Origin: Idiomarina seosinensis
Lineage (GTDB): Bacteria > Pseudomonadota > Gammaproteobacteria > Enterobacterales > Alteromonadaceae
Direction of reading: 5' to 3'
Length of the DNA: 64,000 bases
NCBI RefSeq assembly: GCF_003987275.1
Contig: NZ_PIQF01000003.1
Location: forward strand, 233,315-297,314
Both the position numbers and the translations under genes were made by a program. Under the pieces are notes generated by a model, which made no database searches, was not told the origin of the DNA, and was given only the letters and a program-made list of their open reading frames with translations. Shown here piece by piece: positions 27,457-48,903 of this stretch; position 1 is the first letter of the stretch; every line of letters begins with the position of its first letter.

Positions 27457-27669
27457 GTGACAGAATTTGTTCTCGTTGCGCAAGCTTCAGACGCCCTAGA
27501 GCCCCTTCGTTTTATTCATAAAAAGGACTGTGAGAAAGCGACTGAAGGTGTTCCGTTAGGGGCTTTTCCTACCGCATCGATCGCGCTCAAGCAGGGGCAA
27601 ACGCTATACAGGGATGTGAAACTATGTCCTGACTGTTGCCTAAATACAAAACCAAATCAAGAAAACTAG
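27457..27669 (+). CDS. Small protein with C-terminal CPDCC motif, unknown function
   Basis: 70 residues starting at GTG. The sequence is soluble: MTEFVLVAQASDALEPLRFIHKKDCEKATEGVPLGAFPTASIALKQGQTLYRDVKLCPDCC. The single Cys plus CPDCC could hold a metal or a disulphide. It lies just upstream of the PAS-GGDEF gene, whose proposed start is 11 bases beyond this stop, so it is likely the first gene of the signalling transcript. I do not recognise the family. Confidence 0.5.
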   Translation: MTEFVLVAQASDALEPLRFIHKKDCEKATEGVPLGAFPTASIALKQGQTLYRDVKLCPDCCLNTKPNQEN

Positions 27670-27680
27670 AGGCTGACAAA

Positions 27681-29315
27681 GTGAACAAATTGGCGACCGA
27701 CGAGCTTGACGCTCTCATTAGTGATATCCCGGCAGTGGTTTTTCGGGTCGCAATTGGGCGGCCTGATCTTCCGAGTGCTATTACTGACGATGTAGAACGA
27801 ACACTTGGCTATTCAAAAGCAGAAATAACGGATTTAGAACAGTGGTGGTTTGATCATATTCATCCTAATGATGTCAAATTGGCGTTAAAAGAATTTGAGT
27901 CTTGGGAGCAGCATGAGTTTAACAATGTGCTTCGCAGAGAATATCGGTTTCAGCATAAAAAGGGTCACTTCCTGTGGGTGGAAGATCATATTCGGCGACA
28001 TAGCAGCAGTAAACAAAACGTTCAATTCTATGTCGGTATAATGACTGTTATCGAAAAAGAGGTGAAGGCGCGATCACATGTTAATCATTTGGCAGACGTT
28101 ATTCCTGGTGTATTTTTCCAAATGCGGTTTAACAATGACCGAACAGTGGACTTTCCCTATGTAAGTCATCAGGTGAATGATTTACTGGGTCTAAGTGAGT
28201 CGCAATTAAAAAACGATAGCCTGCAGTTAATGCAGCGAGTACATCCTGATGATATTCGGCCACTTTGGCGAACCTTGTCGGAGTCAGCAAAAACATTATC
28301 GCCTATTATCTGCGAATTTCGCATAATCGATAATGAGCAGCTAAAGTGGGTATCGATGCGTGCTTCGGCAGAGCAAGACAGCAACAGTAGCGTGCAGTGG
28401 TACGGTATTTTTACTGATGCAACAATGCGAAAAGAAATCGAAGAGAAAGTTCGCCAGGCAAACAAAGACTTGCAGCTTGCGCAGCGCGTAGGGCGAGTGG
28501 GTCACTGGAAAGCAAGCCTGGAGACCGGCGAGTTATTTTGGTCCGATATGATCTATGAACTACTTGGGCTGGCAAAAAGCTCAACAAAGCCTAGTGTCGA
28601 TTTGTTCAATAGCCTTGTACATCCAGACGACATTGCAACTATTCGCGCAAGCGAAGAAAAAGCCAAGGAAACCGGTGTTCATCATGTTCAGCATAGAATG
28701 AAACACGCGAAAGGCCATTATATTTGGGTCGAAGAGCAAGCTGAAATGCAGAGCGATGGCGTCACTCTCATAGGAGCCGTACGAGATATCAGCGAGCAAA
28801 AAGCGCTTGAGCTGAAATTGCGGGAGATGGTCGCTACGGATGAAATGACCGGGCTCTACAATCGGCGCTTTTTCTCGGAAGAGGTCGAAAAGTCGTTATT
28901 GCATGCATCAAGGCATAAGGAACCTCTGTCATTATTAATGCTGGACATTGACCATTTTAAAACGGTTAATGACAATTATGGTCATCCGGCGGGTGACTCA
29001 GTGATTAAAGCTATCTCGGATACTTTGCAACACGAGACACGTTCCGGGGATAGTGTCAGCAGAATTGGTGGCGAGGAATTCGCCATAATGCTCCCGAAAA
29101 CACCATTTGAAGATGCGTTTCGTGTGGCAGAAAAATTACGCGCTAACATAGAACAGCAATCAATAAAAATAAGTACTGATACTGAAATAGCAGTAACCAT
29201 TACTATTGGTGTTGCTGCTGCGGTAAATGGCGATACATGGACAAAACTGCTGAGCCGCGCAGATAAAGCGCTTTATCGCGGTAAAGGCTCAGGAAGGAAT
29301 AAAGTCAGCGATTAA
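27681..29315 (+). CDS. Multi-PAS diguanylate cyclase
   Basis: About 544 residues from the GTG at 27681, which has AGAGG 8 bases ahead; a TTG at 27636 inside the previous gene is less likely. Three PAS/PAC-like domains (about 5-120, 125-250 and 260-380, each with HPDD or HPND) are followed by GGDEF (about 385-540). The active site reads GGEEF and an inhibitory I-site RSGD lies 5 residues before it, so a c-di-GMP-producing, product-inhibited enzyme is expected. No membrane helix: it senses in the cytoplasm. The response regulator gene follows after 12 bases. Confidence 0.9.
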   Translation: MNKLATDELDALISDIPAVVFRVAIGRPDLPSAITDDVERTLGYSKAEITDLEQWWFDHIHPNDVKLALKEFESWEQHEFNNVLRREYRFQHKKGHFLWVEDHIRRHSSSKQNVQFYVGIMTVIEKEVKARSHVNHLADVIPGVFFQMRFNNDRTVDFPYVSHQVNDLLGLSESQLKNDSLQLMQRVHPDDIRPLWRTLSESAKTLSPIICEFRIIDNEQLKWVSMRASAEQDSNSSVQWYGIFTDATMRKEIEEKVRQANKDLQLAQRVGRVGHWKASLETGELFWSDMIYELLGLAKSSTKPSVDLFNSLVHPDDIATIRASEEKAKETGVHHVQHRMKHAKGHYIWVEEQAEMQSDGVTLIGAVRDISEQKALELKLREMVATDEMTGLYNRRFFSEEVEKSLLHASRHKEPLSLLMLDIDHFKTVNDNYGHPAGDSVIKAISDTLQHETRSGDSVSRIGGEEFAIMLPKTPFEDAFRVAEKLRANIEQQSIKISTDTEIAVTITIGVAAAVNGDTWTKLLSRADKALYRGKGSGRNKVSD

Positions 29316-29327
29316 AGGAAATAATTG

Positions 29328-29717
29328 ATGGATGTGCTGGAACGAGTGCTTTATGTTGAAGATGATGCTGATATTCGAGAGATAGCAGTCGTGGCATTAG
29401 AAGATATTGGCGGACTGACAGTTCGACAATGTAAGTCAGGTGAACAGGCGTTAGAGGAAGTAGAAGCTTTTATTCCGCAAGTTATTTTACTCGATGTGAT
29501 GATGCCTGGACTGGACGGCCCTCAGGTATTAAAGGCGATGCGGGACATGGGGGCGGTTACGGAATACACAGCTGTTGCTTTTATGACCGCCAAGGTTCAG
29601 CCCAAAGAAATAGAACGCTACAAAAGAATGGGCGTACAAAAAGTCATTTCTAAACCTTTTGATCCTGTGGCTTTGGCTGATGAAGTAAAACAATTATGGA
29701 ACGATTTCAATACTTAA
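29328..29717 (+). CDS. Single-domain response regulator
   Basis: 129 residues, a lone REC domain (start ATG 29328). Acidic pocket VEDDAD, phosphoacceptor Asp in ILLDVMMPGLDGP, Thr in MTAK and Lys in ISKPFDP are all present. Without an output domain it must act by protein contact or as a phosphate shuttle. It sits between a PAS-GGDEF gene and a hybrid kinase gene, and closely resembles the single-domain regulator coded at 42421-42813 (shared LLDVMMPGLDGP, TAKV, VISKPFDP). Confidence 0.93.
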   Translation: MDVLERVLYVEDDADIREIAVVALEDIGGLTVRQCKSGEQALEEVEAFIPQVILLDVMMPGLDGPQVLKAMRDMGAVTEYTAVAFMTAKVQPKEIERYKRMGVQKVISKPFDPVALADEVKQLWNDFNT

Positions 29718-29729
29718 CTTGAGTAGCTC

Positions 29730-32700
29730 ATGACACCAAGATTAAAGGTTTTTGTCACACTCATCTTAATGCTGCTTGCGCTTATTGGCAATGTAGTGAA
29801 CGTGCCGTTGTTCTTTGGTATCCATTTTATTTTTGGCTCCGTGGCTGTTATCGCCGCTATTAAAATAGTTGGTTTTTGGCCTGCCATAGCTGTTGCATTT
29901 GTTAGTGGGCTTTATACGTGGCAATTATGGGGGCATCCCTATGCCTTGTTGACCTTTATGTTAGAAGCTGGTGTTGTTGGCCTGCTATTTCGCCGGGGAG
30001 TTAGTAATTTAGTTATAGCAGATTTAGGCTTCTGGCTGTTGGCGGGTCCATTCGTGATCTCGCTAGCCTATATGGGTCTGCTGGGAATGGACGGCCCGAC
30101 TGCTGCCACAATTGGCCTTAAGCAGGCGCTCAATGGTGTTTTTAATGCACTAATTGCCGGCTTGATCATTAAGCTGTTGGTACTCTTTATCCAAAATGGC
30201 AAAGTAGCCTGGCTACCCAGTCGAGTGAGACTAAATGAGCTGGTTTTCCATATGCTCGTTGGTTTAACGATGCTGTCAGGTGCAGTACCCATAATACTAA
30301 ATAGTTACACCCACAAAGTTGAACAAGAGCAAATGCTCGCCGAACAATTGCAGACTACATTGGTAAACGTTGTTAGTGAGTTTCAGCAGCAAACTCAACA
30401 GCAAGTGCCTCCGTTGGTGCTATTAAATACTGCACTGCAGGGAGCGAATATCAGCGGGATAGGTATTCTCGACAAGCAAGGCAGTCTTCAGACAGGCGCT
30501 GGTGACTTGGTCGCTTTAACGTCTAAAAATGTCAGTCCAGTGAAACGTGTCGATAATTTGTATATTTGGACTCCTGACACTAATGGCAGTCTGGTTAATC
30601 GTTGGAAAAAAGGCATTTACCAATATCGATTGTCGGTCAACGGTGTTCCGGGTGTTGCTCAATTAGTCGTTGAGTTACCGGCTGCTTCTTTAGCTTCCCA
30701 ATTGGAGAGCGAACGAAATTCAAGCTTTTTAATATTAATTGTATTGGTGCTGTTAAGCATTTTTATCAGTTTTCTGCTAACTCGATTGCTGCTGCGTCCA
30801 TTGTTAGCACTAAACTCGGTCTCGAGAAAGCTACCTGAAAATATTGAACAGCAGCTAACAACAAAACTTCCTGACACTCGATTAGTTGAATATGACGAAT
30901 TATCTGACTCTGTAACGACAATGAGCCAGTCGCTTAGAGATGCGTTTAGTAAATTAGAGTCTGCGCGCTCGAACCTTGAATTAGAAGTTGCAGAGCGAAC
31001 AAAAGAGTTAGCAAAAACGTCATCAATGCTGAGCAATATTCTGGAAGCATCCACTGAACTGGCTATCATTGCCACTGATACCCAGGGAACTATCAAGTTG
31101 TTTAACTCTGGTGCACAGCGGTTGCTGGGCTATACGGCGGAATCAGTGGTTAATAAACACACGCCTGCGCTCTTTCACGACCAGGCAGAGGTAGCAGAAC
31201 GGGCTAAACAACTGGCAGAACAGTTATCAGAGCACGTTGAGGGCTTTGATGTGTTTGTGGTAAAGGCTCACTACGAAGGCTCTGATATTCACGACTGGCA
31301 TTATATTACCCGAAATGGCGAGCGTGTCCCGGTGACCTTGGTGGTGACACCAATTACTGATGAGTCGAATAAGACTGTAGGTTATTTGGGTGTTGCGCAG
31401 GATATTACTGAGCGTAAACGTATGGAGAAGATGAAAAGTGAATTCATCTCTACAGTCAGTCATGAGTTACGAACGCCATTGACTTCGGTTAGCGGTGCTC
31501 TTGGGTTAGTACTAAGCGGCAGCTTGGGGCACTTACCTGAGCAAGTTGAGACACTGTTGAATACGGCACACCGCAACAGTGAGCGATTATCTCACCTCAT
31601 TAACGATTTACTGGATATTGAAAAGGTGGCGGCTGGCCAATTGGATTTCGATATACAAACTCATCGTGTTATTTCATTGATTGAGCGAATCATAGAGGAA
31701 AATAAGGCGTATGGCTCGGAAAGAAAAATTAAACTTGAACTGGTGAAGTCCGTAAGCGACGTTTTATTTAAAGTGGATGAACAGCGGTTAAAGCAAATCA
31801 TGGCGAATCTTTTGTCGAATGCGATCAAGTTCTCTCCGGAAAACGAAACGGTGACAATAGATGTCGATACTGACTGCGATAACGTTGTTATAAGTGTGAC
31901 TGACCGAGGTAATGGTATTCCTGAAGCATTTCAGCACAAGTTATTTAATCGTTTTTCTCAAGCTGATAGCTCCGATACCCGGGAGAAAGGAGGAACAGGC
32001 CTGGGCCTGTCTATAACTAAAGAGCTTGTCGAGCATATGGGGGGTAGCATTGGCTTTAAAACAAAAGAAGGCGAGGGGACACGGTTTTTCTTTAAACTCC
32101 CTTTACTAAAAGAAGCAGCACAAGAAGCTGAGCCTCATTCGAAGCAAAAAAAGCAACAAGTGCAGTTCTCAGAAATAACTGAGAACGCACGCAAAATTTT
32201 AGTCATAGAAGACGACGAAGATGTCGCAAAGCTATTAAAATTGACCTTAGAGACGCAGAACTATGACGTCCATCTTCAGCACAATGGCCACGCAGCACTA
32301 AAAAGTCTTGAAAGTGAGCATTTTGATTTAATAACTCTTGATTTAGGTTTGCCGGATATTAATGGGTTGGAAATTATCAGGCGCTTAAGAGATGAAGCCG
32401 GTACTGCTGACATTCCTATTGTTGTAGTCTCCGGAAAAATTGAAAAAGATCGTTTAGAATTAAAAACGCTCCCCCCCAATGTGGAGTGGGTCTCAAAGCC
32501 TATAAAAAGTGATCAGCTTCTCAAGAAAGTACATACGCAGATAGCTAAGCTGGCCTCGCCACGTGTATTGCATGTAGAGGACGATGTCGATTTATCGTCG
32601 GTTATTCGTTCGATGATAGGCGAACATATTGAGCTTGATAATGTGTCAAACCTCGGCGAGGCTAGGCGTTTGTTAAAAGCCCATCACTACGATGTTATTT

Positions 32701-32906
32701 TGCTAGATATTGGTTTGCCCGATGGCTCTGGTTGGGAGCTCGTTCCTGATTTAAAAGTTGCAAACCCCAATACGGCAATTATCGTTCTTACGGGCAGAGA
32801 TGTTAGTAAGCAAAAGTCGGATGATGTGGAGGCCGTATTAATGAAAACGCGGTTGTCAACTGAGGCGCTAATTGACTTGATCCACGCTCGTATTGATACG
32901 AGTTAG
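29730..32906 (+). CDS. Membrane hybrid histidine kinase with two C-terminal receiver domains
   Basis: 1,058 residues. Residues 1-180 carry five or six membrane helices resembling an integral sensory (MASE-like) region. An extracytoplasmic segment follows (about 195-330), a last helix (about 333-355), HAMP, PAS (about 435-560), HisKA with the H box STVSHELRTPLTS, and the ATPase domain (NLLSNAIKF, GGTGLGLSI). REC1 (VIEDDED...LDLGLPD...SGK...SKPI) is canonical. REC2 (HVEDDVD...LDIGLPDGSG) ends with a less regular Lys region, MKTRLST. Phosphate should pass His to Asp and on to an Hpt domain. Its stop codon TAG shares two bases with the TAA stop of the convergent Hpt-REC-REC-GGDEF-EAL gene. Confidence 0.92.
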   Translation: MTPRLKVFVTLILMLLALIGNVVNVPLFFGIHFIFGSVAVIAAIKIVGFWPAIAVAFVSGLYTWQLWGHPYALLTFMLEAGVVGLLFRRGVSNLVIADLGFWLLAGPFVISLAYMGLLGMDGPTAATIGLKQALNGVFNALIAGLIIKLLVLFIQNGKVAWLPSRVRLNELVFHMLVGLTMLSGAVPIILNSYTHKVEQEQMLAEQLQTTLVNVVSEFQQQTQQQVPPLVLLNTALQGANISGIGILDKQGSLQTGAGDLVALTSKNVSPVKRVDNLYIWTPDTNGSLVNRWKKGIYQYRLSVNGVPGVAQLVVELPAASLASQLESERNSSFLILIVLVLLSIFISFLLTRLLLRPLLALNSVSRKLPENIEQQLTTKLPDTRLVEYDELSDSVTTMSQSLRDAFSKLESARSNLELEVAERTKELAKTSSMLSNILEASTELAIIATDTQGTIKLFNSGAQRLLGYTAESVVNKHTPALFHDQAEVAERAKQLAEQLSEHVEGFDVFVVKAHYEGSDIHDWHYITRNGERVPVTLVVTPITDESNKTVGYLGVAQDITERKRMEKMKSEFISTVSHELRTPLTSVSGALGLVLSGSLGHLPEQVETLLNTAHRNSERLSHLINDLLDIEKVAAGQLDFDIQTHRVISLIERIIEENKAYGSERKIKLELVKSVSDVLFKVDEQRLKQIMANLLSNAIKFSPENETVTIDVDTDCDNVVISVTDRGNGIPEAFQHKLFNRFSQADSSDTREKGGTGLGLSITKELVEHMGGSIGFKTKEGEGTRFFFKLPLLKEAAQEAEPHSKQKKQQVQFSEITENARKILVIEDDEDVAKLLKLTLETQNYDVHLQHNGHAALKSLESEHFDLITLDLGLPDINGLEIIRRLRDEAGTADIPIVVVSGKIEKDRLELKTLPPNVEWVSKPIKSDQLLKKVHTQIAKLASPRVLHVEDDVDLSSVIRSMIGEHIELDNVSNLGEARRLLKAHHYDVILLDIGLPDGSGWELVPDLKVANPNTAIIVLTGRDVSKQKSDDVEAVLMKTRLSTEALIDLIHARIDTS

Positions 32907-35347
32907 TGCTTAGTAAGCCACCCTGCTTTTACTACCTGTTCTGCCAACATTGGACGTGCGCTTAAAAAACCTTGGTACTGGTCGCAACCGATACGGCCAA
33001 GAAAATCAAGCTCTTCCTGTTGCTCTATGCCTTCAGCGATAACCTGCATGTGCATGAGATGGCCCAGTTTTACGATGGTATTGAGTAGACGGGCATCCCC
33101 TGTTTCCGACCAATACTGGATAAAAGAGCGATCAATTTTGAGCTTGTCAGCGTTTATACGGTATAAGTAGCTAAGTGAACTGTAACCGGTGCCGAAGTCG
33201 TCTAATGCTAACGAGAAGCCCGACTCACTGAGTGCATCGAGCATTGGGCCGGCCTTCTGCCAATCAGACAACAGGAGGCTTTCAGTGATTTCCAAAGTCA
33301 GGTTTTTAGCATCCAGATTGCATGCTTCGACTTGTGAATCAAGAACCTTGAGAAACTTCGGTTGTTGAATATCTAAAGCTGACAAGTTGAAGGAAATGTA
33401 TAAATCAGGGTGTGAACTTTGCCACACAGATAACTGACGAGTCACTTGCTTTATTATGCTCGCTGTTAAATCGGAGATTATCCCGTACTCTTCCATTGGT
33501 GGTATGAATTCATTGGGGGTCAATAAGCCTCGTTCAGGATGGTCCCATCGTGCTAACGCTTCAAAGCCAAAAAGTGCTCCTGTTTTGACGCAAATTATGG
33601 GCTGATATACCGCTATAAACTCATCTTTATCCAGTGCTTTTTTTATATTCTGTTCAAGGTTAAACCGATACTTCTGTTCCTCCTTCACGGATTGATCAAA
33701 ATAGACGACTTTGGGACCGCTCAACCGTTTTGCTTTGAATAATGCCATATCAGCGTTATCAATAAGTTCGTCAGAGTTAACGGTTTTACCAGTTGCAAGG
33801 GCCACGCCTGCATCAACGGATAAGGTTGCAGGTCCGTGGGATGATATCAGGCTAATTTCATTGATGGCACCGACCAATTTAGTTAGATACAGCTCTAATG
33901 CTTGCTGAGAGGTAAAGTCAGCTGTAAAAAGCATAAATTCATCATTGTGTTCACGGCAAAGCTGGCTATTGGGTTGTAGGTACTGGGTTAACTGCCATGC
34001 AACTTGCTGTAACACTTGATCGCCGAAGTGCTGACCGTGCAAATTGTTAATAGTATGAAAATTGCGAATATCAATTTTCAACAGAGCGATGGTATTATCT
34101 GTACTACTCTTTAGTGTTTTATCAATAGCAGACTTGAGATGAACAAGGCGACCTAATCCGGTTAAAGAGTCGGGAGCTATATCAGCGTTCGAGCCCGTTA
34201 GGTTGGATACTCCTGTTCGCAGTTGTCTCCCTCTTATCACCCGAGACTTTACCATCATCAACAGTCGCCATGGCTCGATGGGTTTATGAATAAAGTCGTC
34301 GTTGGTGAGTCGAGCGCAGGCAAGCTCGATATCAGTATCGTTAGAGGCCGATATAAATAACAATGGAATAGAGGCAAACTCTTCGTGTTGTCGAATAATT
34401 CTGCCAAGCTCTATGCCATCACAGTTTGGCATATTCACGTCGACAAGTATGAGTTCCGGTTGTGACTGGTCCAGTAAGGATAATGCAGCTTCGGCACTAG
34501 TGCCCGTCGATACGGTGTAGCCGGCATCGGTAAGTATTGAGTCGTATAAGTCGAGTAAGTGCCTATCGTCGTCGACAATCATCACCCGGTATGGCTCTGC
34601 GGGTGCGAGGTTAAGCTCTGAACGGAGTAATGCAATCAACTTTTGGACATCGAGTGGTTTGGTAAGAAAGTGATTGCCACCTGCCCGAACAGCAGCCAAA
34701 CGAAGATCAAACGAGTCATGTTGAGATATGAATATGACCGGTAAAGGTGCCCCGTCTTTTTGGCGCCACAAACGAACCTGGTTAGCGCCCGCAAAGCGTT
34801 GTCCGTAAAAGTCCATATCGACGAGCAGCGCAAGTGGCTCGTGCTCACGGATAGTTGTTTCGAGCTTTGTAATATCAGTCTCAATTGTGGCTTGGTAACC
34901 ATAGTTTGCCAGAGTTTGAGTCAACTTAGCCGAAAAGTGCTCATCGTCGTCAAATATTAGAACGTTAATGTCAGCCTGTTCAGTGTCATTGGGGTGCACC
35001 AAACTTTGTTCAGAGAAAGGAACAGGAGTTTGTTTTTCCAGGCAGTGCTTTAATACTCTCAAAAGCTCATTGAACGGCTCTGTTAGTGCCAAACGCAGTT
35101 CTTTTTTAGAGAAATTATTACTGGCATCTAAGACAGACTCAAGCTCCTTTGCAACTTGCGACAGCTCCCGGAAACCATAGGCTTGCCCAGAGCCCGCTAA
35201 CTTATGAGCAATAAGTCGTATTTCTTCGGTTTTTCCCTTGTCGGCGGTCGCATTTAACCAAAGCGCATTAAGACGGCCGTGGTAATCGGCTAAATGAGCT
35301 TGGTATTGAATGCGCAATTTATCCAGTTTCTCTTGAGCTGAGCACAT
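32903..35347 (-). CDS. Hpt-REC-REC-GGDEF-EAL signalling protein
   Basis: 814 residues, no membrane helix. Hpt about 1-100 with the phospho-His box LIAHKLAGSGQAYGF; REC1 about 128-245 (FDDDEH, LVDMDFYG); REC2 about 252-375 (VDDDRH, LVDVNMPNCDG, HKPIEP). The GGDEF domain (about 395-545) is degenerate, reading HNDEF. The EAL domain (about 560-810) looks active: EALARW, NLSALD, EITES, LDDFGTGYSSL, KIDRSF and AEGIEQ are present. It should therefore break down c-di-GMP under phosphorelay control. It is the EAL-bearing relative of the protein coded at 40761-42434 and converges on the hybrid kinase gene. Confidence 0.92.
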   Translation of the reverse strand: MCSAQEKLDKLRIQYQAHLADYHGRLNALWLNATADKGKTEEIRLIAHKLAGSGQAYGFRELSQVAKELESVLDASNNFSKKELRLALTEPFNELLRVLKHCLEKQTPVPFSEQSLVHPNDTEQADINVLIFDDDEHFSAKLTQTLANYGYQATIETDITKLETTIREHEPLALLVDMDFYGQRFAGANQVRLWRQKDGAPLPVIFISQHDSFDLRLAAVRAGGNHFLTKPLDVQKLIALLRSELNLAPAEPYRVMIVDDDRHLLDLYDSILTDAGYTVSTGTSAEAALSLLDQSQPELILVDVNMPNCDGIELGRIIRQHEEFASIPLLFISASNDTDIELACARLTNDDFIHKPIEPWRLLMMVKSRVIRGRQLRTGVSNLTGSNADIAPDSLTGLGRLVHLKSAIDKTLKSSTDNTIALLKIDIRNFHTINNLHGQHFGDQVLQQVAWQLTQYLQPNSQLCREHNDEFMLFTADFTSQQALELYLTKLVGAINEISLISSHGPATLSVDAGVALATGKTVNSDELIDNADMALFKAKRLSGPKVVYFDQSVKEEQKYRFNLEQNIKKALDKDEFIAVYQPIICVKTGALFGFEALARWDHPERGLLTPNEFIPPMEEYGIISDLTASIIKQVTRQLSVWQSSHPDLYISFNLSALDIQQPKFLKVLDSQVEACNLDAKNLTLEITESLLLSDWQKAGPMLDALSESGFSLALDDFGTGYSSLSYLYRINADKLKIDRSFIQYWSETGDARLLNTIVKLGHLMHMQVIAEGIEQQEELDFLGRIGCDQYQGFLSARPMLAEQVVKAGWLTKH

Positions 35348-35441
35348 CTTTTAATCCTTTAAGATAGAGTTACCGCAAACAACTAAATAACGTTTGATTA
35401 TGAGTTTAGCGCCAAAGCTCGTTGATATCCAAGTTTGCGTG

Positions 35442-39910: not shown

Positions 39911-40729
39911 ATGGACATCAAAACCTTTGTAAAAGAGTTTTGGCTATTCGGTGTAAAGCAAGCCTACGCCTGTTTGTTTGGTGGCTTTTTATTGGCGCTA
40001 ATGCTGCTTACCAAGTTCTGGTATCCGCTAGAAGGGCTCCACCGATATGACTTTATCTTTTTAGCGGCTATCGCCTTTCAGCTGTTTCTTATCGTTTTTC
40101 GGTTGGAAACTTGGCGCGAGTTCACGGTTATTCTAGTGTTTCATATCGTCGCAACGGTTATGGAATTATTTAAAACCTCTGACGCTATAGGAGCCTGGGT
40201 ATATCCCGAAGAGTATGTTTTTGGAATTGCCAACGTGCCTCTGTTTACCGGGTTTATGTACAGTGCGGTAGGCAGTTATATCGCCCGGGTCTGGCGCATT
40301 TTTGAATTCGAATACTCCTACTACCCACCGAAAAGCGCAACCATACTATTAGTTTCCTTAGTCTATATAAATTTCTTTAGCCATCACTATATTTGGGACA
40401 TGCGCTGGGTGTTACTGGGCGCTACCATTTTGCTGTTCTACAAAACCACCATTTACTACAAAATAAACAAAACGCATCGCAGTATGCCGCTGTTGCTGGG
40501 TTGGTTTTTAGTCGCACTGTTTATCTGGTTTGCTGAGAACATTGCAACCTACGCGAATATCTGGATTTACCCGAACCAGACAGACGACTGGGAAATGGTC
40601 TCTGTTGCTAAGCTCAGCTCCTGGTTCTTGTTGATGTTACTGAGCTTTGTTCTGGTCGCTTCTATCAATCAGCTGAAAATAAGAAAAGCGGGGGAGTCAG
40701 AGGATCAACGTGTTAAGGCGTGTCCTTGA
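39911..40729 (+). CDS. DUF817 family membrane protein
   Basis: 272 residues from the ATG at 39911. An open frame continues upstream to a GTG at 39764, but that 49-residue extension is unlike the family start ([28 protein letters not shown]). About eight membrane helices are seen, with conserved-looking [56 protein letters not shown] and [18 protein letters not shown]. The role of DUF817 is unknown. It converges on the Hpt-REC-REC-GGDEF gene. Confidence 0.85.
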
Positions 40730-40736
40730 GTGTTTT

Positions 40737-40765
40737 AATAAACGTTAAATATGGCAACGTTTATT
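40737..40765. repeat. Perfect inverted repeat between convergent genes
   Basis: AATAAACGTT (40737-40746) and AACGTTTATT (40756-40765) form a perfect 10-base stem with a 9-base loop. The right arm covers the stop of the minus-strand gene. There is no T tract in the right place on either side, so it may be a weak bidirectional terminator or a 3'-end stabiliser. Confidence 0.45.
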
Positions 40766-42434
40766 GCTGAGTACTGACTTGATTGCGACCATTCCTTTTG
40801 CTCTCGTAGAGCGCTTTATCCGCAGTTTCGATAAGCTCTGAAGCGTCCATCTGATCGGGGAGGTGGCTTGAACAAATGCAACCTGCTGATAAGGTGCAGG
40901 AGAACTTTTGATTGTCCGCGGAAAACTCCATCTCACTAAACGCTATTCGTATTCGGTCAACTATTTTAAAAGCCTCCTGCTCTTGAGTGTTTGGCAAAAT
41001 AACCAAAAACTCTTCGCCCCCATAACGGCCAACAATGTCAGTTTGTCGAAACCGGTGACGTAGCAAGGCTGCAAGTGATGCGATGACCGTATCTCCGGTA
41101 GAATGTCCGTATGTATCATTTACGCGTTTGAAGTGATCGATATCCAGCATGATAATTGATAAGGCGGTTTTTTCCCGACGAGCCCGCATAAGTTCTCGGT
41201 CTGCGTGCTCCTTAATGGTTGCGTGCTTTAATAAGCCGGTTAATCCGTCCCTGCTGATTAATTGCTCTAGATTTCGCGCGCGATGCACTCTGGAACGAAT
41301 AGAGGAAATTAGACGTTCGTTCGAGATAGGCTTCACTAAAAAGTCATCGGCATCAAACAAAAGTGCCTCGGTTTGTTTATCGAGATTGCGTTCGGCTGAA
41401 AGGTAAACAATAGGAAGGCTTTCAAACTGCACGTTTTGTCGAACTAACAGCGCTATATCGATACCTGAGTACTCTGGCATTTCCATATCCAGTAGCAGCA
41501 ATTCAGGCCGAAACTCATTCAGTTCTGAGACAATATTTCTGACGTCGTGGAGAATACTAACCTGCATCCCTTGCGACTCTAGCTCTAGCTTCATTAATGA
41601 ACAGAGTTCTTTGTCGTCATCAATGAGCATGACACGAGGTTGTGCGGACTTCTCCTCGTTGACGACTGCCTCTAAATGACTGACTAGTTCTGAAAGGTTG
41701 ATCGGCTTCTTTAAAAAGCTTGTTGCGCGAATTTTCGCGGCTTTTATTCGCTGATCAAAAGCATCGTTTTCGGACAGCATGATAAGCCCTTTAGGAGCTC
41801 CTTCTGTGGTTGTGAACAATGTTTTGAAATCTGCTGTGGCATTGAATGGATGGCCGTCCATATCAATAATAGTTGCATCCGGCCAGCCCCCTTTATCCAC
41901 TAACTTAAGTGCTTCTTTCAGGGTTACAGTGTTGATTTTAAAGTTGAAGTTTACAAGCTGCTTCGAAAATTGGGCGGCTAATTGTTCGTTTTCTTCAATG
42001 AGCCATACTTCGCCTTCATGAGCTGAACGGGACGGATTAGTTTTCTGGAGTGTTTTAGCAGTGCTTGCAGACTCACTAGAAGAGGATGCATTATGAACAC
42101 TAGTTCTATCTAACAGCTGACAAAAACGGGTGACATCATTACTAATTAGTTTAATGATTGTGTCTTGCCCGAACTGACTCGCAGATTCTTTTAATTTTTC
42201 GTCAATACGGCGTGCTTCTTCGCTGATTTTATCAAAGCCGAAAGTTCCTGCAGAGCCGCTGATGGAGTGCAGTATAAGATGTATCTCATCAACTCTTTGG
42301 TTGGCGTTAGTGAGGCTTAATCCGTCTAATAGAGAAGTTAGTTTCGACTTATCTGACACCAGACGTTCTTTATACTGATCTCGGATAGCCTGGATTTCAG
42401 CCTGTAGCTCTTCTGGTACATTATGTTTGCTCAT
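40761..42434 (-). CDS. Hpt-REC-REC-GGDEF diguanylate cyclase
   Basis: 557 residues from the ATG at 42434. Hpt about 1-110 (phospho-His box LILHSISGSAGTFGF); REC1 about 145-265 is degenerate (IEENEQ in place of the acidic pair, though IIDMDG remains); REC2 about 270-395 is complete (IDDDKE, LLDMEMPEYSG, VKPI). GGDEF about 400-555 has an active GGEEF with I-site RQTD 5 residues before it. It should make c-di-GMP in answer to phosphorylation. It overlaps the response regulator gene by 14 bases and ends the second signalling operon. It is the EAL-less relative of the protein at 32903-35347. Confidence 0.93.
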   Translation of the reverse strand: MSKHNVPEELQAEIQAIRDQYKERLVSDKSKLTSLLDGLSLTNANQRVDEIHLILHSISGSAGTFGFDKISEEARRIDEKLKESASQFGQDTIIKLISNDVTRFCQLLDRTSVHNASSSSESASTAKTLQKTNPSRSAHEGEVWLIEENEQLAAQFSKQLVNFNFKINTVTLKEALKLVDKGGWPDATIIDMDGHPFNATADFKTLFTTTEGAPKGLIMLSENDAFDQRIKAAKIRATSFLKKPINLSELVSHLEAVVNEEKSAQPRVMLIDDDKELCSLMKLELESQGMQVSILHDVRNIVSELNEFRPELLLLDMEMPEYSGIDIALLVRQNVQFESLPIVYLSAERNLDKQTEALLFDADDFLVKPISNERLISSIRSRVHRARNLEQLISRDGLTGLLKHATIKEHADRELMRARREKTALSIIMLDIDHFKRVNDTYGHSTGDTVIASLAALLRHRFRQTDIVGRYGGEEFLVILPNTQEQEAFKIVDRIRIAFSEMEFSADNQKFSCTLSAGCICSSHLPDQMDASELIETADKALYESKRNGRNQVSTQQ

Positions 42435-42813
42435 TAGCACGATTCCAGATGTCCTTTAGTTGGGTCGGTAATGTCATTGGGTCAAATGGCTTAGAGATAA
42501 CGTCTTGGGCGCCGAGTTCTTTTAGCTCTTCAACTTCAGAGTTTAGAACTTTGGCGGTAAAGAATACTACAGGTGTTCCATCTAGCAATCCCTTTTCCTG
42601 AAGCTGTTTCAGTGTGTGTGGCCCGTCCAGGCCCGGCATCATAACGTCTAACAATACTAAGTCGGGTTTAAAGTCAGCTATTTGCTCAATTGCCTCGTAG
42701 CCCGATGAGCAGATGAGTGATGTAAACCCGCCAACCTTATCGAGAGACAGCTTTGCAATGGCCTGGATGTCTGGTTCGTCATCCACCAATAAAACACGTT
42801 TTAACTCAGACAT
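42421..42813 (-). CDS. Single-domain response regulator
   Basis: 130 residues from the ATG at 42813, which has AGGAG upstream. A lone REC domain with VDDEPD, LLDVMMPGLDGP (phospho-Asp), FTAK and VISKPFDP. About half of its residues match the regulator at 29328-29717 by eye. It lies between a CHASE hybrid kinase and the Hpt-REC-REC-GGDEF gene, overlapping both, so it is probably the shuttle that links kinase to output. Confidence 0.93.
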   Translation of the reverse strand: MSELKRVLLVDDEPDIQAIAKLSLDKVGGFTSLICSSGYEAIEQIADFKPDLVLLDVMMPGLDGPHTLKQLQEKGLLDGTPVVFFTAKVLNSEVEELKELGAQDVISKPFDPMTLPTQLKDIWNRANEQT

Positions 42814-45640
42814 GGGGTCTCCTATTCTCATTATTGCCAGCGAGTTTATCGATCAAATCAACGAAGTTGGTACGCGTAAAATTTGCTTTATCCATAATCG
42901 CATCGACACGGCTAGCTTTTTCAAGTGACACCTCGGGGTCGGATGTAACCACGATCTTTATTGCTTCATGAGTGCTGTTTGCAATCTCAATGATGTCGCA
43001 ACCAGAGCTGTCTGGTGAAAGAATATCGAATATTACAACATCATATTTGTTTGATGATAATTTCTGCTTGGCTTGCTGTATAGAGCTTGCCGTATCGACC
43101 TCATAGTTATCTTCTAGTATGGCGGTGATAACAGCAGAGAAATCATCAGAGTCTTCTACATGTAATACGGACTTTTTATTAGAAAGGTTGGTCTTTTTCG
43201 GCAGAGAAAACCAAAATCTTGTTTTCTGATTCAGTTCTGAGTCGAAGCCAATGGTTCCACCCATTTTTTCGATAATCGTTTTTGTAATAGCAAGTCCAAG
43301 CCCAGTTCCACCTTTATTTCGTGAGTCTGAAGACTCAGCTTGTGCAAAAGGCTCGAATACTCTGTTTTTAAAAGCCTCAGGAATTCCTGAGCCGTGATCA
43401 ATAATCTCGATAAGAACATTTTGACCCGTCATTGATGCAGTCACCCGAACCTCACCATCATTCGGCGAGAATTTTGCGGCATTTGAGAGTAAGTTGGTCA
43501 TTGCCTGTATAAACCGAAGTTCATCAACGACGATATGAGCGTCTGTCGATAACGTATTATCGAACTTAATTATCGCGTTCTCTTGTTCGGCATAGCTGCG
43601 ATTTTCTGCAATGGCTTGGTCTAACAATAATTTGAGCGAATGTTCCTGAAACTTAAAAGTTAAGTTTCCCGAGGTCAGCTTTTCAATGTCGAGTAGGTCA
43701 TTAATCAGCAGTGTTAATCGTTTACTGTTCCGGTTGGCTAAGTCCAACACATTTTTAGTTTCCTCTGAGAAACTCTTTTCTTCTAGCGATAGCAGTGAGA
43801 GAGCGCCAGAAATTACTGAAAGAGGTGTTCTTAATTCATGGCTCACAGTGGATAAAAATTGCGATTTTAATCTTTCAGCTTGTTCTGCGGCTTCTTTCGC
43901 GAAGACCAATGACGAAATTTCATGCATTGCGCCCAGCATAGACTGAGGAACGCCGGACTCATCACACTGAATGACGGCATGGCCTTTCATCCAACGCAGT
44001 TCCTCGTTATCGGCTCTGATAATACGAAACGTCGTTTCAAGTGGGGGAGGCGCTTCACTAAAGGGGTCTCGATTGAGCGCTCTTCTCTTCAACTTTTCTA
44101 GTAGTTGATTAAACTCTTCTCGTTCTTCGTGACAAAACACGGGTTCTATACTTTCATAGTTACCATAAAAGTCGCGATGAGTTGTTCCCGTCAGTGAGTA
44201 CATCTGCTCATTCCAGAGCATTTTATAATCTTTTAAGTCGAGTTCCCAAACGCCGATATTGGCCACTTTGGTGGCTGATTCTAATCGTTCTTTTAGTTCA
44301 TTAAGCGTGAGCTGATCATTAATATGTTGGCTGATATCTGTCGCTAACCCTAGATAGCCAACGGGATTGCCGTCGTTGTTAAATTCTTTAGTGACAATCA
44401 ACTCAACCGGAATGCGCTTTCCGAACTTAGATATGTAGGTCCAGTTATCTTTTTCTGACCCTTCAATGTCTGGTATTGCTGTAAACACAGAAAAACCAGA
44501 AATATCTTTATCCAGCTGTGCTGTCAGTATTTTCTCTTTTTTGGTTACTTCATCGGGGTCATGAAAAATTGCTGGTGTTGTTTTATTAATAACCTCGTTG
44601 GCTGAATACCCAAGCATGCGCTCGGCGCCGCGGTTAAAGACGGTTATTAAGCCGTTTCTGTCGGTTGCAATGATAGCCGTTTCAGATGCGGCATTAAGCA
44701 CGTGGTTTAGTTTACTGTTGACATCACTTAGTTCCTTTGTGCGAGCTTTAACTTCGGTTGATAGTGAATTAAGTAAGTTTTGCTGATAGACATGTCGCGT
44801 CAAAAAATAAATGCCAAGCACTACAGCAAGAGTGAGGCACCAAATGATAAAGCGAGCAACCCAGAGATTTGGTTCATCTTCTTCAACTGCAATAGCAAGC
44901 TGCCAGTCTCCGCTGGGAGTTTCTACAACAGTTGTTGCGGATGCATCAGCAAAAACCGCCGCATCTCCTATAAAAGGGGATGGATTAATGTTTTTGGTGT
45001 TGTTGGCATGTTTTAAACCCAGCTGTACTGAGATTTCTGTTTCTTGAATTTCTTCCGTTAACGACTGAAATAAGCGATCTGCGTCTATAACAGCGCTGAT
45101 TATGCCCCAGTAATTATCATTAAGGTATACCGGGGATCGGTAAATTAGCCCTAAACCGCCCTGCACTAATTCCAAAGGGCCGTCGAGGGCAACAGTGTTT
45201 GACTCAATAGTTTGTTTGATCGATGGCCACTGAGATGGCAGGTTTTCGTAGTTCAAGCCTAACGCGGCCTCATTTCCCTCAAGGGGGATAATCCAGGAAA
45301 GCTTATTATTAGGGGCAATACCAATATTTCTAAAGAAGGGACTAAATTGATAAACTTGTTTAAGCATTGAGTTTACTTCATCCGAAACAATATCTCCTCG
45401 GCGTGCAACAATATATGCCTCGATGCCGTTTGTTAAAAATATCGTCCCATTAAGCTCTGTTTCCAGTTGAGACTTAAGCCTGATAGCAAGCTCCGAGGCG
45501 CTGCGTTCCAGATCCGCCCGCTGACTTTTTTTATACTCATAAATAAGGTACTCAGTAGCTCCGATAAAACTGAAAAACAGCAAGGCGGCGATTAGTTTGA
45601 GCCAGCGTGAGCTTTTATATGAATGCCGATAATAACTCAT
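42806..45640 (-). CDS. CHASE-PAS hybrid histidine kinase
   Basis: 944 residues. TM1 about 14-32, a CHASE periplasmic sensor about 35-265 (SPFFRNIGIAPNNKLSWIIPLEGNEAALGLNY), TM2 about 280-300. Two PAS domains follow (about 325-450 and 455-600), then HisKA with STVSHELRTPLSVISGA, the ATPase domain (NLLSNAAKFS, GGTGLGLAITK) and a C-terminal REC (LHVEDSDD, IFDILSPDSSG, MDKANF). It overlaps the preceding kinase gene by 4 bases (ATGA) and the response regulator gene by 8. CHASE domains read small extracellular ligands such as peptides or cytokinin-like compounds; the ligand here is unknown. Confidence 0.92.
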   Translation of the reverse strand: MSYYRHSYKSSRWLKLIAALLFFSFIGATEYLIYEYKKSQRADLERSASELAIRLKSQLETELNGTIFLTNGIEAYIVARRGDIVSDEVNSMLKQVYQFSPFFRNIGIAPNNKLSWIIPLEGNEAALGLNYENLPSQWPSIKQTIESNTVALDGPLELVQGGLGLIYRSPVYLNDNYWGIISAVIDADRLFQSLTEEIQETEISVQLGLKHANNTKNINPSPFIGDAAVFADASATTVVETPSGDWQLAIAVEEDEPNLWVARFIIWCLTLAVVLGIYFLTRHVYQQNLLNSLSTEVKARTKELSDVNSKLNHVLNAASETAIIATDRNGLITVFNRGAERMLGYSANEVINKTTPAIFHDPDEVTKKEKILTAQLDKDISGFSVFTAIPDIEGSEKDNWTYISKFGKRIPVELIVTKEFNNDGNPVGYLGLATDISQHINDQLTLNELKERLESATKVANIGVWELDLKDYKMLWNEQMYSLTGTTHRDFYGNYESIEPVFCHEEREEFNQLLEKLKRRALNRDPFSEAPPPLETTFRIIRADNEELRWMKGHAVIQCDESGVPQSMLGAMHEISSLVFAKEAAEQAERLKSQFLSTVSHELRTPLSVISGALSLLSLEEKSFSEETKNVLDLANRNSKRLTLLINDLLDIEKLTSGNLTFKFQEHSLKLLLDQAIAENRSYAEQENAIIKFDNTLSTDAHIVVDELRFIQAMTNLLSNAAKFSPNDGEVRVTASMTGQNVLIEIIDHGSGIPEAFKNRVFEPFAQAESSDSRNKGGTGLGLAITKTIIEKMGGTIGFDSELNQKTRFWFSLPKKTNLSNKKSVLHVEDSDDFSAVITAILEDNYEVDTASSIQQAKQKLSSNKYDVVIFDILSPDSSGCDIIEIANSTHEAIKIVVTSDPEVSLEKASRVDAIMDKANFTRTNFVDLIDKLAGNNENRRPHV

Positions 45641-48600
45641 TCGTCTACCTCAAGCGCGCATGTGGGCTTTGGCAGCATGATGTAAAAGTCTGTACCAGTT
45701 GAATCTGTGATAAAGTCGATGTTGCCTCCTAAGCGATCAACAATCTCTTTTGATATAGACAATCCGAGGCCAGTACCGCCTGTTGCTCGCGTATTGCTTG
45801 AGTTTGCTTGGGCGAACTTCTCAAATACTCTGGGCTGAAATTCCTCAGGGATCCCTTCGCCGTTATCCTTTACTGATATTCGAACATATTCGCCGGTTTC
45901 TTCAGCAAAGATTTTTACAGTCTCACCTTTTGGTGAGAACTTGACGGCGTTTGAAATTAGATTGGCAAGAACTTGTTCAAACCGTTGAGCATCGACATAA
46001 ATACAAAGCGACGGATCGATAGGGTATAATTCTAGATTAACTTGGTAACGACGAGAATAGGGCGTATTGCGGTCAATAATCGCTTCCAGTAAAGGAGCGA
46101 CAAGCAGATTTTCAAAATGCATTTGCATTCTTCCGGCTAGCAATTTTTCGAGATCGAGTATGTCATTAATCAGTAAGTTCATGCGAACACTGTTCTTTTT
46201 AGCAACCTCTATCATTTCTGTGGCTTGCGTGGGGAGCTCGCCAAAAGTACCGCCAAGCAATAAGTCAAGGGCACCGGTAATTGATGTTATGGGAGTGCGC
46301 AGCTCATGACTTACTGTTGAGACGAAGGCATTTTTAATTTCTTCGTTACGTTTGCGTTCTGAGATATCTTCGATGATGGACCAAATTAGCTTCCTGCCAT
46401 TGTCGTCATAGACGACCATCCCGTTTAACAGGACAGGGTAACGACTCCCGTCTTTACGAATGTATTCTTTTTCAAAGGGACCATAGCGGCCGGTATCCGC
46501 CAAAACTTCCAGTTGCTTGATTTCTTCCTCTTCATATTCGCGAGGTGTCACGTCCCAATAACTTAAAGAAATAAACTCTTCGCGTGTATACCCAGTGGGC
46601 GCTAACAGCGCATTATTTAAGTCAACAAACTTCCCTGTTTCGTAGTCGTTTAGTGCAATGCCAATCGGAGACAGTTCAAAAAGACCCCGTAATCGACTCT
46701 CACTATTTTCCAGCGCTTCGTTTTTATGTTTAAACTCCAGAGACGAAGAGACCCAGCGGGCGAGCAAGCCTAAAAACTGCTTTTCAGTCTCCTTAAAGGG
46801 TTCGCCTCTGGGATGTGCGGAAGAAAAGTTGAGAGTACCAAATGGGTGCCCATTCACGTTTATTGCTAAACCAATGTAAGATTCAAGGCCAAATGCCTCA
46901 TAACAGGGGTGTTGCCGGTACTTGGATGTCGCCATATTTTCAATGGCAACAGTTTCACCCTCAGACATCACTATTTGGCAATAGGTGTCTTTAAGTGGAA
47001 ACGTTTGTCCTGTTGTTAAGTCGGCCTCTTCTGGCGCATTATAGGCGATGATCTCATATTCTTGCGCTTGCTCATTAATCCTACTGACAATACCGAGTTC
47101 GAGATCCAAGTAGGCGCATGCCAAGTTAAGACCTTGAGTAATGCGCTGAAGCGGGTTCTCAGGAGAAAGTGAGGCGATTTGGTTAAGCGCTTTAAAGGCT
47201 GCAAGTTGAGTTTGTAACTCATCTTGGTTTTGTTTCTGCTGCGTGATGTTGAGAATGAATCCATCGAAATAATCAACATCGCCTTCTTCATTTTTTATGG
47301 CTCTGCCCTTTTCCTGAGCCCAGCGAATGCCTCCATCGCGGTGCAAAATTCGGTACTCGAGGAGCCACTCTTGATTATTTTCAATGGCTTTTGATACTTC
47401 CCGCTCCAATCTCTCTTTATCATCAGGGTGAATAACACTGTCATAGCTACGAACGGTATTCTGAATAAAGTCGGTTGCAGGGTAACCCGACAGAGGGTCT
47501 ATCTTGTCACTCATGTACAGCATCGTCCAATGCTCATCGTGAAGGCAGCGATACGTCACACCCGGAATATTATTCACAAGTGAGCGAAACTGAGCTTCAC
47601 TGGCTTTTAATGCTTGTTCACTTTTTACTTGCTGGGTTATATCGCGAACCGCGAATACGTAGTGAGTTTCAGCGCCCACGACGAGGGGGGCACCGTTAAC
47701 TGATAACGCTTTCCACTCCCCACTCGGCCAATGGATAGCGTGCTGCACATCGCTGATGGATTGACCGGTTCGACGGACAACAGGAAAAGGAAGCTCTTCG
47801 GGGGGAAAGAATGACCCATCGATTTTAGTAATTTGCCAGCGCGGGTCGTCAAAGGTTGCATTAGTTTTATCCGGTGATTCCTGTGGCTCTAACCCCAAAA
47901 CATTGACTGCTTCAGCATTTGCGTAGGTGAATTTGCCCGCCTCATCGAGTACGAAGAAAGCAACAACATTACTGTTAAAAATCTTTTCAAGAAATTCGCG
48001 CTGAGACTTTATTTCTCTCTCTGCTTGTTTCTGCTTGGTAATATCTTCATGAGTACCAGCAATGAGAAGAGGCTCGCCACTTTCAGTGGTCGAAACCAAC
48101 CGCCCGCGGTCATGGACCCATACCCAATGTCCATCTTTGTGACGCATGCGCGCGTTGAAATCATAGAAATCGGTTTCACCCCGAAAGTGTTGTTGTAACA
48201 ACTCATTAGACTTTTCTAAATCGTCAGGATGTGCAAGCGACATCCAGGTATCAATTGAGATGGGTTCAAGTTCCGCCAGGGTGTAGCCAACGATATTTGC
48301 CCAGCGCTCATTAAAAACTGTTTCTCCGGTTTGGACATTCCATTCCCAGGTGCCGACGTTGGTTCCTTCTAAAATGGACTGGAGCCGTTGTTCATTCTTT
48401 TTCGTTGCTTTGAGCTTCTCAGTGAGTTTGATTTCATCCTGCACGGCCGACGCAATGTCTTGCAAAATGCTTCTTTCTGCAACAGAAAGTACGCGAGGTC
48501 GAGTATCGATAACACAGAGAGTGCCAATCCGAAAACCATCGATACTTTGAATGGGGCAGCCCGCATAAAACCGGATTTTTGGGTCATCAATGACTAACGG

Positions 48601-48903
48601 GTTATCGCTAAACCGGCTGTCTTCCTTTGTGTCGTTAACTTCAAACACTTTGTCGTTGAGTATGCTGTAGGCGCAGAATGCAAATTCACGTGGTGTTTCT
48701 GAAACCGAAAGGCCTTGCTTAGATTTAAACCATTGTCGGCACTCATCGACAAGGGAAATAAGGGCGATTGGCACGTTCAGGGCAGTTTGTGCAATGCGAG
48801 ATAGTCGATCAAATCGTTCTTCCGGGGGAGAGTCCAGCAGTCCCGTTTCTTGTAACGCTTTTAAACGTTGTTGTTCATTATCTGGGATATCAGCTGATTT
48901 CAT
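45637..48903 (-). CDS. Cytoplasmic GAF/PAS histidine kinase
   Basis: 1,088 residues, no membrane helices. In order: GAF (about 15-160), PAS (165-295), PAS (300-420), PAS (425-555), GAF (565-720), PAS (725-850), HisKA with STVSHELRTPITSITGA (about 855-925) and an ATPase domain (NLISNAVKFS, GGTGLGLSISK). There is no receiver domain, so its phosphate must go to the receivers coded by the next genes. It heads the second signalling operon, which runs to 40761 with overlapping genes. Six sensory domains suggest that it combines several cytoplasmic cues. Confidence 0.92.
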   Translation of the reverse strand: MKSADIPDNEQQRLKALQETGLLDSPPEERFDRLSRIAQTALNVPIALISLVDECRQWFKSKQGLSVSETPREFAFCAYSILNDKVFEVNDTKEDSRFSDNPLVIDDPKIRFYAGCPIQSIDGFRIGTLCVIDTRPRVLSVAERSILQDIASAVQDEIKLTEKLKATKKNEQRLQSILEGTNVGTWEWNVQTGETVFNERWANIVGYTLAELEPISIDTWMSLAHPDDLEKSNELLQQHFRGETDFYDFNARMRHKDGHWVWVHDRGRLVSTTESGEPLLIAGTHEDITKQKQAEREIKSQREFLEKIFNSNVVAFFVLDEAGKFTYANAEAVNVLGLEPQESPDKTNATFDDPRWQITKIDGSFFPPEELPFPVVRRTGQSISDVQHAIHWPSGEWKALSVNGAPLVVGAETHYVFAVRDITQQVKSEQALKASEAQFRSLVNNIPGVTYRCLHDEHWTMLYMSDKIDPLSGYPATDFIQNTVRSYDSVIHPDDKERLEREVSKAIENNQEWLLEYRILHRDGGIRWAQEKGRAIKNEEGDVDYFDGFILNITQQKQNQDELQTQLAAFKALNQIASLSPENPLQRITQGLNLACAYLDLELGIVSRINEQAQEYEIIAYNAPEEADLTTGQTFPLKDTYCQIVMSEGETVAIENMATSKYRQHPCYEAFGLESYIGLAINVNGHPFGTLNFSSAHPRGEPFKETEKQFLGLLARWVSSSLEFKHKNEALENSESRLRGLFELSPIGIALNDYETGKFVDLNNALLAPTGYTREEFISLSYWDVTPREYEEEEIKQLEVLADTGRYGPFEKEYIRKDGSRYPVLLNGMVVYDDNGRKLIWSIIEDISERKRNEEIKNAFVSTVSHELRTPITSITGALDLLLGGTFGELPTQATEMIEVAKKNSVRMNLLINDILDLEKLLAGRMQMHFENLLVAPLLEAIIDRNTPYSRRYQVNLELYPIDPSLCIYVDAQRFEQVLANLISNAVKFSPKGETVKIFAEETGEYVRISVKDNGEGIPEEFQPRVFEKFAQANSSNTRATGGTGLGLSISKEIVDRLGGNIDFITDSTGTDFYIMLPKPTCALEVDE

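Follow-up and report, generated by a model that had tools for sequence, protein, structure and literature searches.

Two distantly related Hpt-REC-REC clusters with predicted opposite cyclic di-GMP outputs share a variable insert in Idiomarina seosinensis

In chemosensory cluster 2 of Halomonas titanicae KHS3 a diguanylate cyclase has the domain order Hpt-REC-REC-GGDEF, with a GGEEF motif and an I-site, and control by a phosphorelay has been proposed for it; in 2018 its authors were not aware of any cyclase with this order that had been characterised (PMC5907407). The window analysed here (64,000 nucleotides of Idiomarina seosinensis; assembly GCF_003987275.1, contig NZ_PIQF01000003.1, positions 233,315 to 297,314) comes from a genome of 2.69 Mb in 6 contigs and carries two clusters, A (27636-36326) and B (40761-48903; extents from the list of open reading frames), each encoding kinases, a lone receiver and an output protein that begins with Hpt-REC-REC. 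This gene content had been given in a preliminary description of the same DNA, and Pfam confirmed the domain orders, with all domains of both output proteins above the curated cut-offs. The description began cluster A at 27457; the cluster itself stands, but its first gene starts at 27636, and 27457 is out of the frame of that gene. We infer from the sequences that each cluster would be a multistep His-Asp-His-Asp phosphorelay ending in an enzyme of cyclic di-GMP (c-di-GMP) turnover, a reading of the phosphate route, the enzyme activities and the cross-talk between A and B in which our confidence is somewhat better than even. The two output proteins probably have opposite activities, one making and the other breaking the same messenger.

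The B output protein resembles the H. titanicae cyclase in domain order, GGEEF motif and I-site; its translation reads RQTD-IVGRY-GGEEF, and Pfam reported no EAL domain, all as had been stated from the sequence. The H. titanicae cyclase, however, belongs to a Wsp-like cluster with CheA and a chemoreceptor, whereas the neighbours here are HisKA kinases, lone receivers and unrelated genes; the part of that paper available to us mentions no EAL partner (PMC5907407). The A output protein has the same domain order, but its GGDEF motif is degenerate (HNDEF in translation, without an I-site) and an EAL domain is appended. In this EAL domain E596, N654, E686, D716, D717, K737, E772 and Q792 are invariant in 7/7 proteins of the A clade (the clade of the A output protein in the tree described below), covering all the residues that we take to be catalytic (Glu, Asn, Glu, Asp-Asp, Lys, Glu, Gln); of the GGDEF motif of the same seven proteins DEF alone is invariant. 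By these residues the protein is a predicted EAL c-di-GMP phosphodiesterase, and the degenerate GGDEF with intact EAL noted earlier is borne out. The further suggestion that a module had split into a c-di-GMP maker and a c-di-GMP breaker holds for the opposite predicted activities of the outputs; for the clusters as wholes it is too simple, as cluster A encodes two more predicted cyclases. Since both of these GGDEF proteins have GGEEF and, five residues ahead of it, an RxxD at the I-site position, they look intact, and the label of c-di-GMP breaker does not fit cluster A as a whole.

Control of an EAL phosphodiesterase that depends on an Hpt domain is described for Aeromonas ArrS/ArrR and Pseudomonas RocS1/RocR, where, unlike in the A output protein, the Hpt domain is on the kinase and the output is REC-EAL only (PMC11841396, available in part). 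For Anabaena CdgK-CdgS a relay from histidine kinase (HK) through REC2, Hpt and REC to GGDEF has been proposed from mutants and transfer assays, with REC1 dispensable; there the Hpt domain and two receivers are on the kinase (CdgK is HK-REC-REC-Hpt), not on the cyclase CdgS (PMC9927289, available in part). CdgK-CdgS is a precedent that supports the relay logic proposed here. The architecture is already known, and the interest lies in the linked opposite pair together with the pattern of first and second receivers.

In the relay that we propose, a kinase would autophosphorylate on its HisKA histidine and pass the phosphate to the lone receiver, or else to one carried by a hybrid kinase; the next acceptor would be the histidine of the N-terminal Hpt domain of the output protein, and the last the aspartate of the second receiver (REC2), directly ahead of GGDEF. 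All of these parts (HisKA His, receiver Asp, Hpt His, receiver Asp) are encoded together in the clusters; in lone receiver A we take Asp57 to be the phospho-acceptor, and presume roles for Thr88 and Lys110 in the same way. In cluster B phosphorylated REC2 would promote formation of the active GGDEF dimer and increase c-di-GMP; in cluster A the relay would set the EAL phosphodiesterase activity, in either direction, with the degenerate GGDEF perhaps as a regulatory or structural domain. The first receiver (REC1) would be an adaptor or a decaying receiver in most cyclase-type members and a complete receiver in all members of the A clade.

Conservation of the receiver sites was read from an alignment of 87 hits spanning at least about 290 query residues plus the two window proteins. 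Among the 80 rows outside the A clade the Hpt His was present in 78, the five-position REC2 site in 79 and the full REC1 site in 24; both receiver sites were complete in 9/9 A-clade rows (rows named by locus; two of them, L014 and L015, are outside the tree). These counts include the window's own rows and near-duplicates (L013/L014, L015/L017, L045/L098, L007/L039, L042/L044 and L060/L061), and REC1 is the harder domain to align. Divided by output, REC1 was complete outside the A clade in 12/51 rows with GG(D/E)EF, 2/4 with EAL, 5/7 with a HisKA motif and 5/18 of the rest; the corresponding figures for REC2 were 50/51, 4/4, 7/7 and 18/18. In 22 cyclase-type proteins the Hpt His and the REC2 Asp, Ser and Lys were invariant, and in the window B protein both sites read as complete, REC1 too. 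With the Hpt His and the REC2 site kept and REC1 far less often complete, the likely partners in phosphate transfer are Hpt and REC2; as the two are nearly always kept together, internal transfer within one chain would be possible.

PleD of Caulobacter (PDB 1w25, 2v0n) is similar in having tandem receivers before GGDEF, with dimerisation as the likely mode of activation. The window outputs are not of PleD type: they have an Hpt domain, which PleD lacks, the family keeps REC2 (79/80 rows) more than REC1 (24/80), and the PleD model NF007135 gave 211 bits against a cut-off of 474. In PleD the first receiver works and the second is a pseudo-receiver (PMC12632262, available in part); the present family shows the reverse, with REC2 conserved and REC1 in decay. 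One could imagine that the kinases phosphorylate REC1 or REC2 directly and that the Hpt domain is an auxiliary serving other regulators; partner kinases do phosphorylate PleD on its receiver (same source), and PleD chains were the top fold matches of the B structure model. An Hpt His present in 78/80 rows is, however, unexpected for a dispensable domain, and the kept receiver is the opposite of that in PleD, so that we regard such direct phosphorylation as distinctly improbable.

The model of the B output protein (mean predicted local distance difference test score, pLDDT, 82.6; predicted template modelling score, pTM, 0.60) has four helices at residues 10-113, the Hpt region, followed by two receiver-like stretches and a GGDEF stretch; the model of the A output protein has a mean pLDDT of 78.5 and a pTM of 0.41. 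The best solved matches were DgcR and PleD by sequence and PleD by fold (B model). DgcR (PDB 6zxm), a REC-GGDEF protein and the best-scoring solved relative by sequence, covers the REC2-GGDEF part; unlike the window outputs it has one receiver and no Hpt domain, and we take it to be from Leptospira, going by its NCBIfam name. None of the 56 solved chains at E 1e-20 matched before profile position 251, i.e. in the Hpt part. The solved Marinobacter GGDEF domain 3ign was considered as a candidate for the M. nauticus Hpt-REC-REC-GGDEF protein and rejected, with no chain at E 1e-50.

A different role may be imagined for the lone receiver. CheY sinks and DivK are models for receivers that act as sinks or adaptors; a lone receiver of this kind would be a phosphate sink or an allosteric adaptor, while the Hpt domain would drain REC2 phosphate back to the kinases, a reverse relay that would switch the output off. 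We surveyed about 1.5 kb on each side of the cyclase-type gene at 30 loci out of 56 cyclase-type matches: a related lone receiver stood beside the gene in 19/30 loci, our own included, and the 11/30 loci that had none would agree with this alternative, as would the hybrid kinases with receivers of their own, for which a separate intermediate is not strictly needed. Hpt relays are, moreover, reversible (PMC12632262, available in part). On the other side, those 19 loci have retained a lone receiver next to the Hpt protein, and the B kinase without a receiver would need one to reach Hpt; we judge the reverse relay unlikely and retain the forward, multistep relay.

The two clusters are homologous by several comparisons. 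The lone receivers are 48.4% identical over 128 residues and both contain LLDVMMPGLDGP and VISKPFDP, in line with the earlier estimate of about one half by eye. The output proteins are co-linear and 26.9% identical over 550 residues of the Hpt-REC-REC-GGDEF part (E 1e-58), with pairwise values of 24% for Hpt, 28% for REC1, 36% for REC2 and 26% for GGDEF. Within the genome, the best match of lone receiver B after itself is lone receiver A (49%; 12 others listed, 25-36%), and the core of the B kinase without a receiver best matches the remaining two kinases of the clusters, at 49% and 43% identity, with four further matches of only 24-36%. Such relatedness makes cross-talk between A and B plausible.

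From similarities of this kind the preliminary description had inferred a duplicated module: a single ancestral unit would have given rise, within this genome, to two copies that later became a cyclase and a phosphodiesterase. That the lone receivers and the kinase cores are each other's closest within the genome, in clusters 4.4 kb apart, is what one would expect of such an event. The trees called for in that description speak against it. In the Hpt-REC-REC tree (85 rows, L098, two L014 rows and L015 having been dropped; quick method without bootstrap) the seven A-clade rows form one side of a branch with support 100 (1 change versus 6.8 in shuffles), which holds Marinobacter, Halomonas, Pseudomonas, Rheinheimera and Alishewanella rows; window A groups with two Marinobacter rows (84) within a five-row group with Halomonas and Pseudomonas (100), and window B with Idiomarina ATCH4 and the same-genus genome G016 (100). 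The lone receiver tree (46 rows; reading frames of at most 270 amino acids (aa) at 85 bits or more; L014, L098 and L006 rows dropped) places A with Marinobacter NP96 and Halomonas (99/97) and B with G016 and ATCH4 (100/99). The kinase tree has 75 rows, the three window kinases and, with L014 and L098 left out, the top 72 of 96 hits by score. Each B kinase falls there in a starred set of three rows that includes same-genus ones; the A kinase has Marinobacter and Halomonas as its nearest rows by path but belongs to no starred set, so that it agrees by path length only.

The identities tell the same story: lone receiver A is 63% identical to Marinobacter versus 48% to lone receiver B, which in turn is 81-87% identical to same-genus copies. 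The A hybrid kinase has Marinobacter relatives about 51% identical across nearly its full length. We compared 18 other genomes of the genus as well as 369 genomes of the class. In the 18, the A output protein, the only A gene product searched individually, was without a match at E 1e-90; the B kinase without a receiver was found at 74% identity in G010, at 80% in G016 and as a partial match of 43% in G012, and the Hpt-REC-REC profile matched in the same three. Because the trees separate A from B, each having outside relatives nearer to it than the other cluster is, and because the A output is unmatched in the 18 genomes, we reject tandem duplicates: a local duplication seems to us extremely improbable, and on this evidence A and B are distant relatives from different lineages.

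Is the opposite pair peculiar to this genome? Eight genomes among the named relatives carry an A-clade gene, and in 5/8 a cyclase-type gene lies on the same contig, <10 kb away: two Marinobacter, Halomonas campaniensis, Alishewanella tabrizica and Rheinheimera maricola. In a sixth, Vreelandella neptunia, contig ends interrupt the A-clade gene, and the genes of the second contig are arranged consistently with those of Halomonas. The two Marinobacter are near-duplicates of one another, as are Halomonas and Vreelandella, which leaves about three independent linked cases. In Marinobacter and Halomonas the order is lone REC, Hpt-REC-REC-GGDEF, kinase, hybrid kinase and then a convergent Hpt-REC-REC-GGDEF-EAL gene; in Rheinheimera and Alishewanella three kinase genes surround the lone REC, the cyclase gene comes last and the A-clade gene is at the other end on the opposite strand. 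(In-frame stops in the Rheinheimera and Alishewanella cyclases were only apparent, being the terminal stop codons.) Because a cyclase of this order lies within this distance in 5/8 A-clade genomes, the cyclase/phosphodiesterase pair, as predicted from sequence, is older than the present genome.

One could speculate, though we hold it only tentatively, that the pair is a push-pull unit, in which one set of kinases and lone receiver would feed a cyclase, with REC1 in decay and REC2 working, and an opposite-strand phosphodiesterase, with both receivers complete, through the same front end, a single phosphate pool switching synthesis and breakdown of c-di-GMP in opposite directions, and that in this genome members of two lineages came together at a variable site to form such a pair anew. 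Cluster A is of the type seen in Marinobacter, Halomonas, Rheinheimera and Alishewanella, but lacks the linked cyclase partner; B, an Idiomarina-type cyclase cluster, is 4.4 kb away in the same insert.

A number of observations weigh against the relay and the pair as proposed. No linked cyclase partner was present in 2/8 A-clade genomes, Pseudomonas CSBr16 and M. halophilus, the latter also without a lone receiver in the 21 kb examined; in G281 the A-clade gene is on a contig of 4.6 kb and the cyclase-type cluster is elsewhere. In 11/30 cyclase-type loci there is no lone receiver nearby. Hybrid kinases have receivers of their own, so that the lone receiver may be dispensable. A complete REC1 is not specific to phosphodiesterases, being found in 12/51 cyclases and missing from 2/4 of the other EAL rows, and some of the apparent loss of REC1 may reflect errors in aligning a divergent domain. 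The structure models, at pTM 0.60 and 0.41, leave the arrangement of the domains unfixed.

The order Hpt-REC-REC-GGDEF had been called rare, a statement that does not survive the census: at a threshold of E 1e-120, a profile from 22 cyclase-type proteins found matches in at least 47/369 class genomes, our own included (in 2 of the 47, G378 and G394, the sole match begins behind the Hpt region), and the order was described in Halomonas in 2018. The A clade, at E 1e-170, was found in at least 2/369, again including our own; in both censuses scoring was confined to the top 2 or 3 candidates of each genome, so that the counts are lower bounds. Named relatives of the Hpt-REC-REC region came from Gammaproteobacteria, Rhodospirillaceae, Geobacter, Desulfovibrionales and Cyanobacteria, among others. 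Cyclases of this order are widespread, yet none had been characterised to the knowledge of the 2018 authors (PMC5907407, available in part). The linked pair, with the same front end on opposite enzymes, provides a natural control for the way in which c-di-GMP enzymes are steered by Hpt and by each receiver, and opens this question to direct tests in marine bacteria. Our literature search, with most subscription journals outside its coverage, returned no recognised description of the EAL form or of the linked pair; later work may exist.

What else the front end is joined to was seen in a Pfam scan of 10 of the 17 rows longer than 690 aa outside the A clade. Two (L005 of G051, L010 of G048) have the same five domains as the A output protein, Hpt-REC-REC, GGDEF and EAL, in the same order and with a GGDEF motif that is degenerate in the alignment, but stand far from the A clade in the Hpt-REC-REC tree; a third (L060) is Hpt-REC-REC-EAL with no GGDEF detected. 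Confinement of the EAL tail to the A clade is ruled out by these three. In three others Hpt-REC-REC is fused to a PAS-HisKA-HATPase kinase (L020:4244-7012, L021:1963-4365, L024:9968-12340), and in four cyanobacteria a receiver and a winged-helix domain precede Hpt-REC-REC-GGDEF in one chain (L054:9116-11476, L062:9116-11560, L068:7448-9799, L069:540-2957). The variety of partners in these ten suggests that Hpt-REC-REC is an old, general input module, whose fusion to GGDEF-EAL is seen in two or more distinct clades. A tandem pair of Hpt-REC-REC-GGDEF genes is present in Geobacter sp. OR-1 (L023:8146-11476), one of them with the motif GSNEF.

Table 1. Genes of clusters A and B and the insert that contains them (window coordinates)
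Feature	Coordinates	Strand	Remarks
Variable insert with A, B and other genes	27281..53986		between 3' end of M24 peptidase pseudogene and heavy-metal island
Cluster A: predicted diguanylate cyclase, three PAS_3 stretches and GGDEF	27636..29315	+	559 aa, TTG start, GGEEF, RSGD at I-site position
Lone receiver A	29325..29717	+	130 aa; Asp57, Thr88 and Lys110 present
Hybrid kinase A, weak HAMP-PAS-HisKA-HATPase-REC-REC	29730..32906	+	1058 aa, hydrophobic N-terminus as read, HAMP below cut-off
A output protein, Hpt-REC-REC-GGDEF-EAL, predicted phosphodiesterase	32903..35347	-	814 aa, degenerate GGDEF (HNDEF)
Cluster A: GGDEF protein, predicted diguanylate cyclase	35442..36326	-	294 aa, GGEEF, REND at I-site position
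B output protein, Hpt-REC-REC-GGDEF, predicted diguanylate cyclase	40761..42440	-	559 aa, GGEEF, I-site RQTD
Lone receiver B	42421..42831	-	136 aa; longest frame overlaps genes on both sides
Hybrid kinase B, CHASE-PAS-PAS-HisKA-HATPase-REC	42806..45640	-	944 aa
Kinase B without receiver, two GAF, several PAS, HisKA-HATPase	45637..48903	-	1088 aa, 4-base overlap with next gene

The genes of both clusters are tightly packed (Table 1): in A the first three genes are separated by gaps of 9 and 12 bases, and the hybrid kinase and output genes converge, their tails overlapping by 4 bases; the longest frames of the B genes overlap one another. Both clusters lie in an insert of 26.7 kb, with A followed by four genes without signalling domains, B, a resistance-nodulation-division (RND) pump with its adaptor and a MarR-type regulator. 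On the left of A the insert adjoins an M24 peptidase gene (26306-27280) that is a pseudogene, with an in-frame stop and an internal gap relative to intact relatives; its conserved part is matched in open frames of 405-442 aa in 14/18 same-genus genomes. What follows this gene differs among them. The heavy-metal island comes within 500 bases in G004 and G006; in our window it begins near 54 kb, and the DNA is 99% identical to G004/G006 from 53987-54017 on. Other genes follow in G001, G002, G005, G015 and G017, and in G016 the B cluster starts about 50 bases after the peptidase gene, with the right flank (94%) about 15 kb further. It is this differing content that marks 27281-53986 as a variable insert. 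We saw no useful flanking repeat or tRNA as a mark of integration at the insert; one plasmid record and 13 phage records matched the A output protein, none of them covering 80% of the query.

At the left edge of cluster A, a 70-residue open frame (27457-27669) overlaps the start of the first gene in another frame; it was one of three frames that had no match in a PHROGs search. Between A and B (36333-40729) there are genes for an alpha/beta hydrolase, an RNase T2-like protein (C-terminal match weak, below cut-off), a 333-aa orphan and a DUF817 protein, with no DNA match in the ten same-genus stretches compared. The RND pump (49054-52134) has a copy of 99% identity in G016 and one of 97% in G005, the G016 copy being about 1 Mb from the B cluster of that genome, and had no match at E 1e-180 in the other 16 of the 18 same-genus genomes. 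The whole genome gave 46 GGDEF matches in 2.69 Mb, a density that strikes us as high. The heavy-metal island (54009-63311) encodes MerR, cation efflux, signal peptidase II, an ISL3 transposase and a multicopper oxidase, and its proteins are 84-100% identical, many of them at 98% or more, to those in the compared parts of G002, G004, G005 and G006.

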